Source: Halopiger xanaduensis SH-6
Lineage (GTDB): Archaea; Halobacteriota; Halobacteria; Halobacteriales; Natrialbaceae
Length of the DNA stretch: 64,000 bases
Direction: 5' to 3'
Assembly (NCBI RefSeq): GCF_000217715.1
Contig: NC_015666.1
Coordinates: 1,438,270-1,502,269, forward strand
The notes under the pieces were generated by a model that saw nothing but the letters and a program-made list of their open reading frames with translations, ran no database searches and was not told the DNA's origin. Position 1 is the stretch's first letter; every line of letters begins with the position of its first letter. Made by a program: the position numbers and the translations under genes. Shown here piece after piece: positions 50,820 to 53,707 of this stretch.

Positions 50820-51281
50820 TTAGTCGTCGTCGGTTTCCAGTTCGAACTGTTCGTTCTCGGCGACCTGATTCAGTACGACGCTCGTGTTGGACTGGTTGAT
50901 GTCGGGGTCGGTCAGCAACTGTTTGATCTGGTCGTTCATGTCGTCGGTGTCCTTGAATTTGCCGACGGCGATCACGTCGTAATCGCCGGTAACCTCGTAG
51001 ACGGAGATCATCTGCTCGTGCTCCCGGAGCGTCTCCGTGATCTCGGGGAGGGCGTTCCCCTCGGCTTTGAGTTGCATGATCGCCGTGACGTCGTAGCCGA
51101 CGGCGTCGTAGTCGACGATCGGCGTGTAACCCTCGATAACGCCCTCTTCCTCGAGATCGGAGAGGTGGTTCGAGACGGTCGTCACGGAGACGTCCAGTTC
51201 CTCGGCGAGGCTGCGCAGGCTCGCGCGCCCGTTCCCGAGCAGTTCGTTGACGAGATCGGCGTCGAGATGTTCGTACGTCAT
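50820..51281 (-). CDS. Lrp/AsnC family transcriptional regulator
   Basis: This 153-residue regulator has an N-terminal winged helix ([28 protein letters not shown]) and a C-terminal RAM/effector domain ([32 protein letters not shown]). It probably senses amino acids and forms an octameric or dimeric assembly. Haloarchaeal Lrp genes are often beside glnA, but here the neighbours are a small membrane gene and the purine phosphoribosyltransferase. ATG 51281 is used. A palindrome (51412-51430) upstream may be its own or the neighbour's operator. Confidence 0.9.
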
Positions 51282-51411
51282 GCCGTTCAGTAGGTAGCTT
51301 CCACTACTAGATGTTTACGAATATCCAGTTTTTTGCGTCGATTTATATCTCTCTCAGATCCGCGCGCGCATATATCGGGACTCGGTGCGTTCTCTACGGA
51401 TTTCGACCGTC

Positions 51412-51430
51412 GTTGAACCATCGGTTCAAC
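51412..51430. promoter_or_regulatory. 19-bp operator-like palindrome between lrp and the phosphoribosyltransferase
   Basis: GTTGAACC-ATC-GGTTCAAC forms 8-bp arms around a 3-nt spacer, in the divergent region between the lrp and phosphoribosyltransferase starts. It could bind the Lrp protein or a purine regulator. Confidence 0.4.
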
Positions 51431-51556
51431 TTCTCGAACCCTTGCTACCCTGCATTGCACTCGAGGACGATAGCCGAGAAGCAGAACGAAATCGAGACCG
51501 AACCGCGAACGAACCGAGAACGAACGATTTTTGCCTCGATTTTCCGAACCGGCAGT

Positions 51557-52111
51557 ATGGAGCGGCTCCTCGAGTCCTTAGACGACGCACCGATCATCGA
51601 CAAGGACGGCTACGAGTACCTCGTCCACCCGATCAGCAACGGCGTGCCGCGGCTCGATCCCGACCTGCTGCGCGAGGTCGTCGTCGAAGTCATGCGGACC
51701 GTCGACCTGGACGTCGACAAGATCGTCGCCCCCGAGGCGATGGGGATCCACCTCGCGACCGCGCTCTCCCTGCAGACCGACATTCCGCTGGTCGTTATCC
51801 GCAAACGCGAGTACGGCCTCGAGGGCGAGGTGTCGCTCCACCAGGAGACGGGCTACTCGGAGTCGGAGATGTACATCAACGACATCGAGGACGGCGACCG
51901 CGTCGTCATCGTCGACGACATGCTCTCGACCGGCGGGACGCTGGCGGCGATCTGCGGCGCCCTGGACGAGATCGGAGCCGAGATCGTGGATATCGTCGTC
52001 GTGATGCGCAAGGTCGGGGAGTCCGCGCTCGACGACACCGAGTACGAGGCGACGAGTCTCGTCGATATCACCGTCGAAGACGGGGAAGTAACGGTTCACT
52101 CGACGCACTGA
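51557..52111 (+). CDS. Hypoxanthine/guanine- or adenine-type phosphoribosyltransferase
   Basis: This 184-residue type I phosphoribosyltransferase has the PRPP-binding loop [13 protein letters not shown] (about residues 116-128). It resembles the archaeal family that makes IMP, GMP or AMP from a base and PRPP, although which base is used is not evident. ATG 51557 is chosen; an ATTTTTGCC box at about 51528-51536 lies ~25 nt upstream, giving a leaderless mRNA. With the NCS2 permease 0.18 kb downstream it forms a purine salvage unit. Confidence 0.88.
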
Positions 52112-52178
52112 GCGTCGCGACCCGTCGGACGGCGACTCCGATCGGCGATTTCGAATGGCGACCGCGAACGGGTCGATG

Positions 52179-52196
52179 TATGCACTTCTCTGCAAC
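52179..52196 (+). promoter_or_regulatory. Upstream copy of an 18-bp direct repeat before the permease gene
   Basis: TATGCACttcTCTGCAAC is repeated almost exactly at 52264-52281 (15 of 18 bases), 85 bp away, or about eight helical turns. An inverted half-site GTGCATA lies between them at 52211-52217. It is a candidate regulator site. Confidence 0.5.
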
Positions 52197-52263
52197 ACGT
52201 AGTCACGGACGTGCATATCATTCAGCTGCCGAACCGCCCTATGGGCTCGTTTACGAAACTTTT

Positions 52264-52281
52264 TATGCACCCATCTGCAAC
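52264..52281 (+). promoter_or_regulatory. Promoter-overlapping copy of the 18-bp direct repeat
   Basis: TATGCACccaTCTGCAAC lies just downstream of the TTTTTAT box (52260-52266) of the permease gene and before its start codon (52295). A protein bound here would probably block transcription, which suggests a repressor or a looping activator. Confidence 0.5.
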
Positions 52282-52294
52282 CTGGCGCCCATAG

Positions 52295-53707
52295 ATGGCA
52301 ACCGACTCCGATGGGGGTATTCAGCTCGAGTACGGCCTCGACGAGAAACCGCCGTTACCGAAATCGATCCTGCTGGGGCTCCAGCACGTCGCGGTGATGA
52401 TCGTCCCGGCGACGGCGGTAGCGTACGTCGTCGCCGGCGGCGTCGGCCTCTCGCCGGCGGATACGGCCTACATCGTCCAGATGGTCCTGCTGTTTTCGGG
52501 GCTGGCGACGATGATCCAGGCCTACACCGTCGGTCCGGTCGGCGCGCGCTTGCCGATCGTCATGGGCTCGAGTTTCACGTTCGTGGGGGCGTCGATCTCG
52601 ATCGGCGCGGACTACGGGATGGCCGCGGTGTTCGGCGCGATCCTCGTCACCGGATTCGTCGTCGAGGGACTGATCGGCTGGCAGTTCAAACGTATCAAAC
52701 CCTTCTTCCCGCCGCTCGTCACCGGTCTCGTCGTCGTCATCATCGGTCTCTACCTCATTCCGGTAGCGATGGACTACGCCGCCGGCGGCGCCGACGCGGC
52801 CGACTTCGGCGCGCTCCACAACATCGGCCTCGCCGCGCTCGTGCTGGCGATCGCCGTCGGCCTCAACATGCTCACCCGAGGCGTCACGCGGCTGCTGTCC
52901 GTGCTGGTCGCCATCGCCGTCGGCTACGCGGTCGCCGTCGCGCTGACGTTCGCCACCGGCCTCGAGCTCGTGGATTTCTCGCCCGTCGGCGAGGCCGCGT
53001 GGGTCGCGCTCCCCAAACCCACCCACTTCGGCTTCGAGTTCGAGCCGATCGCGATCGCCACCTTCGCCGTCCTCTTCCTCGTCTCCGCGATGGAGACGGT
53101 CGGCGACATGTCCGGCGTCACGGCCGCGGAGGGGCGGAACCCGACCAACGAGGAGTTCCGCGGCGGGCTGTTCAACGACGGCCTGCTGAGCTCGGTCGGC
53201 GCTGTCTTCGGCGCGTTCCCGATCACTTCCTTCTCGCAGAACGTCGGCATCGTCAACTTCACCGGCGTGATGAGCCGTCACGTCGTCGGCATCGGCGGGG
53301 TCTTCCTCGCCGTCCTCGGTCTGAGCCCGAAGGTTGGCGCCGCCGTCACGACCATCCCCAGCGCCGTCTTCGGCGGCGCCGTGTTGCTGATGGCTGGGAT
53401 GGTCGCCGCCAGCGGCTTCCGGCTGATCGTCACCCACGCCGACCTCGACCGCCGGAACACGGTCGTCGTCGCCGTCTCGCTGGGCCTCGGGCTCGGCATC
53501 GCGACGACGCCCGAAGCGCTCGCCGGCCTGCCCGACGCCGCGGAGACGTTCTTCGGCCAGCCGGTCATCGTCACCGCGCTCTCGGCGCTGGCGCTCAACA
53601 CGTTCGTCCCCGGCGCGCAGAGTCCGCTGTTCGACGCCGTCCCCAAGGACGCGGACGGGGCGACCGGTTCGGCCGACGCCGCGACGGCCGGTCCCACCGA
53701 CGACTAA
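52295..53707 (+). CDS. NCS2 family xanthine/uracil permease
   Basis: This 470-residue nucleobase transporter has about 14 helices. Family-like stretches are LGLQHVAVMIVPATAVAYV, GARLPIVMGSSFTFVGA, VSAMETVGDMSGVT and FPITSFSQNVGIVNFTGVMSR, which hold the substrate- and cation-binding residues of NCS2 (UraA/XanQ) proteins. The exact base is unknown, but xanthine or uracil is typical. ATG 52295 follows a TTTTTAT box by ~30 nt; operator-like repeats overlap the promoter. Together with the phosphoribosyltransferase it suggests uptake and salvage of purine bases. Confidence 0.92.
   Translation: MATDSDGGIQLEYGLDEKPPLPKSILLGLQHVAVMIVPATAVAYVVAGGVGLSPADTAYIVQMVLLFSGLATMIQAYTVGPVGARLPIVMGSSFTFVGASISIGADYGMAAVFGAILVTGFVVEGLIGWQFKRIKPFFPPLVTGLVVVIIGLYLIPVAMDYAAGGADAADFGALHNIGLAALVLAIAVGLNMLTRGVTRLLSVLVAIAVGYAVAVALTFATGLELVDFSPVGEAAWVALPKPTHFGFEFEPIAIATFAVLFLVSAMETVGDMSGVTAAEGRNPTNEEFRGGLFNDGLLSSVGAVFGAFPITSFSQNVGIVNFTGVMSRHVVGIGGVFLAVLGLSPKVGAAVTTIPSAVFGGAVLLMAGMVAASGFRLIVTHADLDRRNTVVVAVSLGLGLGIATTPEALAGLPDAAETFFGQPVIVTALSALALNTFVPGAQSPLFDAVPKDADGATGSADAATAGPTDD

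Follow-up and report, generated by a model that had tools for sequence, protein, structure and literature searches.

A palindromic operator of haloarchaeal purine genes and its candidate regulator, the phosphoribosyltransferase-type protein PRK08558

The window, a stretch of 64,000 nucleotides from Halopiger xanaduensis SH-6, contains hpt followed by a gene for a xanthine-type permease. The hpt product is recognized by the archaeal model NF040646 (242.1 bits, cut-off 200) as well as by the broader NF002635, which is named adenine phosphoribosyltransferase (281.5 bits, cut-off 146). The permease carries a PF00860 domain and passes TIGR03173 pbuX with 419.2 bits (cut-off 414.15). The 183-bp intergenic region separating the two genes holds both copies of an 18-bp repeat and, in addition, a palindrome. 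The features relevant here are:

50820-51281, minus strand: Lrp-family regulator, beyond hpt (NF041396, 275.3 bits)
51557-52111, plus strand: hpt, hypoxanthine/guanine phosphoribosyltransferase, 184 aa, upstream partner of the permease (NF040646 HPT_Archaea)
52179-52196, plus strand: O1, candidate distal asymmetric operator copy TATGCACTTCTCTGCAAC, first copy of the repeat (7.4 bits)
52200-52217, plus strand: O2, candidate main palindromic operator TAGTCACGGACGTGCATA (20.4 bits)
52251-52266, plus strand: BRE/TATA-like promoter element TTACGAAAC-TTTTTAT of the permease (from the sequence and its conservation among orthologous promoters)
52264-52281, plus strand: O3, candidate TATA-proximal asymmetric operator copy TATGCACCCATCTGCAAC, second copy of the repeat (6.6 bits)
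52295-53707, plus strand: NCS2 xanthine-type permease (PbuX-like), 470 aa (PF00860; TIGR03173)

O1 and O2 begin 116 and 95 bp upstream of the permease ATG, respectively. The BRE/TATA role of 52251-52266 was assigned by eye from archaeal promoter rules; as the ATG follows this element by 28 bp, the permease transcript is probably nearly leaderless. A sequence-only reading of this DNA had drawn attention to the repeat as the possible site of a purine-responsive regulator. Its two copies are indeed identical at 15 of 18 positions and lie 85 bp apart. The second was said to lie between the TATA box and the start codon; it does precede the ATG at 52295, but it overlaps the TATA-like TTTTTAT (52260-52266) at that element's 3′ end and is thus only partly downstream of it. 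Likewise, the inverted half-site noted between the copies is present, but belongs to the full palindrome O2; the spacing to this palindrome is 21 bp for the first copy and 64 bp for the second.

An equally good repeat arose in this intergenic region in 0.65% of 2000 Markov shuffles (P 0.0065). Since 71 of 702 stretches of the same length within the window contain one as good, the 18-bp repeat by itself is weak evidence. A genome-wide search for the 18-mer, which the same reading had proposed, gave a mixed outcome. Allowing at most one mismatch, TATGCAC-N3-TCTGCAAC occurs at three places in the whole 4.36-Mb genome, namely O1, O3 and a position 6 bp before the ATG of the candidate regulator introduced below. 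At up to three mismatches it was not enriched in this genome (21 matches against 39 for the reversed control), so the asymmetric 18-mer was dropped as a genome-wide motif and a symmetric pattern, TATGCAC-N4-GTGCATA, was adopted for the searches.

In the window's own genome, the symmetric pattern has two places with one mismatch, upstream of folD and purL, and six with two mismatches, three of which are O2, purF and a permease of the Xan_ur_permease family, which we take to be AzgA-type. Three others (L077, L078 and L080) showed no purine gene in their ORF lists and were taken as chance matches. Nine further places with three mismatches were fetched: two lie at purD and at the divergent purH/purB promoter, and the seven without a purine gene were again put down to chance; at three mismatches the pattern is no commoner than its control. 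Sites thus precede purF, purL, purD, purH/purB, folD, the AzgA-type permease and the hpt-linked permease, as well as the regulator gene, where the site has the asymmetric form. Pfam confirms purL, purF, purD, purH, folD, the AzgA-type permease as a Xan_ur_permease member, and the purA of a relative; genes referred to as purB, purS and purQ are presumed to be such from their sequences. The end of the site lies 40 to 64 bp upstream of the start codon at purL, purH, purD, folD and azgA, and at these five targets the site appears by eye to be upstream of the BRE/TATA element. The start codon of purF is uncertain. The operator consensus that recurs upstream of haloarchaeal purine genes is an 18-bp palindrome, TAT[GC]CACG[AT][AT]CGTG[GC]ATA.

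In a matrix scan of the 64-kb window, O2 ranks first at 20.4 bits, ahead of a runner-up at 8.8 bits, and 0.004 matches of its grade are expected by chance per 64 kb. Scores such as those of O1 (7.4 bits) and O3 (6.6 bits) are expected two to three times in 64 kb. The matrix behind these three scores was trained partly on the genes tested, and the promoter counts given below were therefore redone with each gene left out. A site of at least 16.2 bits is found at 16/16 closer permease loci (L003-L018, the window's locus included), where it starts between 95 and 128 bp upstream of the permease. The best score at the six diverged permease loci (L019-L024) was 8.6 bits, so that a strong site is absent from all six; the genomes of four of these loci have the regulator gene, and such permease paralogs may be under other control. 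Of the 16 closer loci, only that of G001, from the same genus, matches the window in having a site where O1 lies. The O3 stretch is recognizable in the orthologous promoters of several relatives and has its CTGCAAC half in common with the site before the candidate regulator gene; O3 is probably a weaker asymmetric operator, its 6.6 bits being no proof on their own. Most likely, O1, O2 and O3 form a three-site operator of the hpt-linked xanthine permease, which would be one target of a purine regulon.

In a search of 37 genomes with the symmetric pattern, allowing no more than two mismatches, the matches listed included 67 places outside the window's own genome, and all of these were fetched. 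Thirty-six of the 67 lie no more than 250 bp upstream of the start of a purine gene (purL, purF, folD, azgA, purD, purH/purB, purS or the permease), and 31 are not near the purine genes sought. Divided by genome, and still among the matches listed, 36/60 places in genomes with the regulator gene are at purine genes compared with 0/7 in genomes without a match to it (G037, G039, G041, G044 and G046, of which G037 is 78% complete). Taking one locus per genome, purine genes were found at 17/30 loci of the pattern and at 0/30 of the reversed control; control loci were checked against 12 reference proteins that did not include purA, and purA was left out of this comparison. Two more of the pattern's 30 loci (L107 and L109) are purA promoters, with sites that match the purA loci of G002 and G006. 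The raw number of two-mismatch places is only modestly above that of the reversed control (hand-summed totals of 97 and 66 over the 23 genomes of the same family), which implies that many of the places are chance matches. The central positions left open in the search are nevertheless conserved, with G8 (by symmetry C11) in 49/72, the 36 sites each being counted in both orientations.

Two observations from these searches stand apart from the purine genes. In the whole genome of G043, TATGCACNNNNGTGCATA matches 53 times when up to two mismatches are allowed and the control pattern twice; the palindrome may be carried there by a repeated element. At L101, in G014, the palindrome TATTCACGTGCGTGCAGA (1501-1518) lies 31 bp upstream of the start codon (ATG) of what we assume to be a gene for a UspA-type stress protein; in the window's own genome, a presumably UspA-like gene (L035:301-744) adjoins the regulator gene.

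The suggestion that such sites mark the action of an undescribed purine regulator is supported in part: it would have been refuted had no others occurred near purine genes, and they do recur upstream of such genes, both in the window's genome and in relatives. The motif as first drawn had to be corrected to the symmetric consensus, with its strongest site between the two copies, and the permease stands as a target, but within a regulon that spans much of the purine pathway. We regard the operator and the regulon as strongly supported, and it is nearly certain that the motif is the operator of a haloarchaeal purine regulon.

A candidate for the protein that binds it is encoded elsewhere in the same genome:

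G000:C3:1584331-1585047: candidate regulator PRK08558/NF006328, 239 aa, 82 kb beyond the window

This protein is a member of NF006328 (PRK08558, “adenine phosphoribosyltransferase”) at 356.9 bits (cut-off 184) and has a PF00156 phosphoribosyltransferase domain. Its top sequence match among solved structures is PurR of Bacillus subtilis (1p4a), to which it aligns structurally with Z 19.4 over 188 residues (rmsd 3.8); the phosphoribosyltransferase part aligns at Z about 19 to 22 to XPRT, APRT and PurR structures. A PRPP-loop-like stretch, VDDLIRSGET, is invariant in the 23 sequences aligned from 80 named haloarchaeal loci. Because the complete model drew mainly phosphoribosyltransferase-domain matches in a fold search, a separate model of the N-terminal domain was made and used as its own query. 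In this model, which covers the N-terminal 76 residues of an ortholog, there are four helices and no strands (pLDDT 90.1), forming a highly conserved helical domain additional to the APRT/XPRT fold. Against HTH_3 this domain scores 18.8 bits, below the cut-off of 23, and Foldseek gave no match at E 0.001; after realignment, its best structural match, weak like the others, was an XRE-family regulator (Z 7.3). The protein is thus apparently a helix-turn-helix domain fused to a phosphoribosyltransferase domain, and the former is apparently XRE-like, as judged from these weak matches. In G009, a stretch about 1.6 kb from a full copy of the regulator (G009:C1:192403-192570) is 68% identical to the first 56 residues of the protein and lies inside a 208-aa open frame; it is a possible paralog of the helix-turn-helix domain.

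A full-length match of at least 72% identity is present in 46/61 genomes searched, and three more gave weak matches only. The NF006328 cut-off is passed in 21/148 sampled genomes of the phylum, all of them in the window's order, and in 2/14 control genomes. The regulator gene itself is preceded by the asymmetric proximal site GTTGCAGGATCGTGCATA, which has the CTGCAAC half seen in O3. A score of 8 bits no more than 120 bp from the start is seen at only 43/80 named loci, so the case for autoregulation rests on this asymmetric variant.

The link between protein and operator was examined in 20 genomes with the regulator gene and 10 without it, from which the purL, purF and purH loci were fetched; the promoters of each gene were scored with a matrix built from the other genes, at a threshold of 8 bits. 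This threshold was reached by 58/60 promoters in the gene-positive genomes and by 0/29 in the gene-negative ones, where the purF of G048 was not found; the gene-negative genomes partly follow family lines and do not represent 10 independent losses. One of them, G012, is from the window's own family and lacks both the gene and the sites, and another, G048, was counted as negative although it is 78% complete and has a weak match of 28% identity. The two misses among the positives are the purL promoters of G011 and G042. Site position is fixed at -58 in 18/18 purL hits, falls between -131 and -129 in 16/20 purF promoters and is -71 in 15/20 purH promoters. At purA, 8/20 gene-positive and 0/10 gene-negative genomes reach 8 bits, and the own genome is negative, so that purA was rejected as a core target. 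The regulator gene is present in G038 (86% complete), which has no place at two mismatches.

These results meet a question already raised for Halobacterium, where purine genes follow purine levels and a purine regulator other than TrmB was inferred, with no PurR homolog found by sequence (passages of PMC3794607 and PMC4540570). Purine biosynthesis is not a target of direct repression by TrmB in Haloarcula, according to part of PMC10817205. The parts seen of PMC8305020 name no purine regulator, those of PMC7760734 yielded no purine passage, and the 12 places shown of 22 in PMC4299497 concern E. coli. Among open-licence papers we found none on PRK08558 or an archaeal PurR and, among the matches listed, recognized none naming this operator or regulator.

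PurR of B. subtilis (TIGR01743; structures 1o57, 1p4a and 7rmw) resembles the candidate in joining a DNA-binding domain to an effector domain of the phosphoribosyltransferase type. Within the extent of the comparison made with passages of PMC8789054, which left purM, purC, purE, purK and the gua genes outside, the targets found here also resemble its regulon. By this likeness of targets, the candidate would work like a PurR, although it scores 46.9 bits against TIGR01743, far below the cut-off of 258.7, and differs in operator and apparently in DNA-binding domain. The N-terminus of PurR is a winged helix, whereas that of the candidate is modeled as all-helical and apparently XRE-like; PurR recognizes paired 14-bp PurBoxes, whereas the haloarchaeal operator consists of single 18-bp palindromes. 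A further difference lies in the promoters, which at the haloarchaeal targets are of the archaeal BRE/TATA type and often have the site on their upstream side. Another regulator, GfcR, is also of the phosphoribosyltransferase type. It is a transcription activator of the haloarchaea Haloferax volcanii and Haloarcula hispanica, annotated as pyrE1 in Haloarcula (PMC11519228, in part), and unlike the purine candidate it controls glucose and fructose degradation; its model NF045507 was not among the 18 families that the candidate matched at E 0.01. The archaeal TrmB, TrmBL1 and Tgr regulators differ from PRK08558 in protein family, motif and effectors.

Alternative explanations differ in how much of this evidence they can accommodate. 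The repeats could be a chance similarity in a GC-rich promoter, as might be thought from the 71/702 stretches with an equally good repeat, the three-mismatch matches that are no commoner than the control's, and the low scores of O1 and O3. This is very improbable given the 17/30 against 0/30 loci at purine genes and the 58/60 against 0/29 promoters, and for O2, the top match of the window and of a kind kept at 16/16 closer permease loci, chance is already contradicted. Still less credible is control by TrmB or by an RNA element such as a riboswitch, with some other role for the palindrome. In Halobacterium, weak TrmB binding does occur close to some purine genes (PMC4540570, in part), yet the TrmB motif, TACT-N7-8-GAGTA (given in a passage of PMC4158304), is absent from the operator consensus, and PMC3794607 and PMC4540570 state, in the parts consulted, that the purine genes need a TrmB-independent regulator. 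Against an RNA element, most targets in the own genome have their site upstream of the apparent TATA and thus outside the mRNA, and an Rfam search of 51300-53000 found nothing that reached the gathering score; of its two matches at E up to 1, the better (18.5 bits, gathering score 37.4) is on the other strand inside the permease gene.

A more serious alternative accepts the palindrome as the purine-regulon operator but has it bound by another protein, for example the Lrp-type regulator at 50820-51281 or an unlisted helix-turn-helix protein, with PRK08558 as a salvage enzyme and itself a target. The NCBIfam name adenine phosphoribosyltransferase, supported by 356.9 bits against a cut-off of 184, the Lrp-family regulator near hpt and the weakness of the helix-turn-helix assignment (HTH_3 18.8 bits; best Z 7.3) would agree with this. 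We nevertheless consider it unlikely, because none of the 29 purL, purF and purH promoters in the 10 PRK08558-negative genomes, one of which is from the same family, has a site, because the APRT/XPRT fold is extended in PRK08558 by a highly conserved helical domain at the N-terminus, and because this protein resembles PurR of B. subtilis in sequence and fold. With a probability of roughly 0.8, we take PRK08558 to be the regulator of the purine regulon, an identification that draws on co-occurrence and on the site in its own promoter. The name PRK08558/NF006328 implies an enzyme, whereas a regulatory role is proposed here; for a regulator lacking that activity, the name would be a propagated misannotation.

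With PRK08558 as the regulator, a mechanism can be suggested. A dimer would bind the palindrome through the N-terminal helix-turn-helix, and the phosphoribosyltransferase domain would sense PRPP or a purine nucleotide. PRPP is a likely signal by analogy with B. subtilis PurR, where it releases a repressor (a passage of PMC8789054). For TrmB, TrmBL1 and Tgr, a palindrome upstream of BRE/TATA goes with activation and one downstream with repression (PMC4158304, in part). The sites at the de novo genes are in the upstream position typical of TrmB activation, which suggests that the regulator probably activates their transcription when purines are scarce; by this analogy, activation at the purine synthesis genes is slightly favored. 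Two sites, O3 and the one at the regulator's own gene, overlap the region from TATA to the start, and since sites downstream of TATA go with repression, the regulator would probably repress there. With spacings of 21, 64 and 85 bp, all three sites (O1 to O3) lie on roughly one face of the helix, an arrangement that would permit looping but does not demonstrate it.

Taken as a whole, we tentatively suggest, at somewhat less than even odds, that PRK08558 could be the missing haloarchaeal purine regulator, in which an XRE-like helix-turn-helix and a purine phosphoribosyltransferase were joined independently and which has its own palindromic operator. Bound immediately upstream of BRE/TATA, it would activate de novo synthesis; from asymmetric TATA-proximal sites it would repress itself and limit the permease, possibly through looping between O1/O2 and O3. 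Its signal would be PRPP. It may also keep enzymatic activity and thus be a moonlighting enzyme and regulator.

This work provides a named candidate, an operator sequence and a list of targets for the purine regulator inferred in Halobacterium, and the candidate turns that question into a testable one. It suggests that the haloarchaeal NF006328 genes annotated as adenine phosphoribosyltransferase encode regulators. If true, this would be a striking parallel between Firmicutes and Archaea, in which similar targets would be governed by a phosphoribosyltransferase-based sensor acting through a different operator and an apparently different DNA-binding domain.
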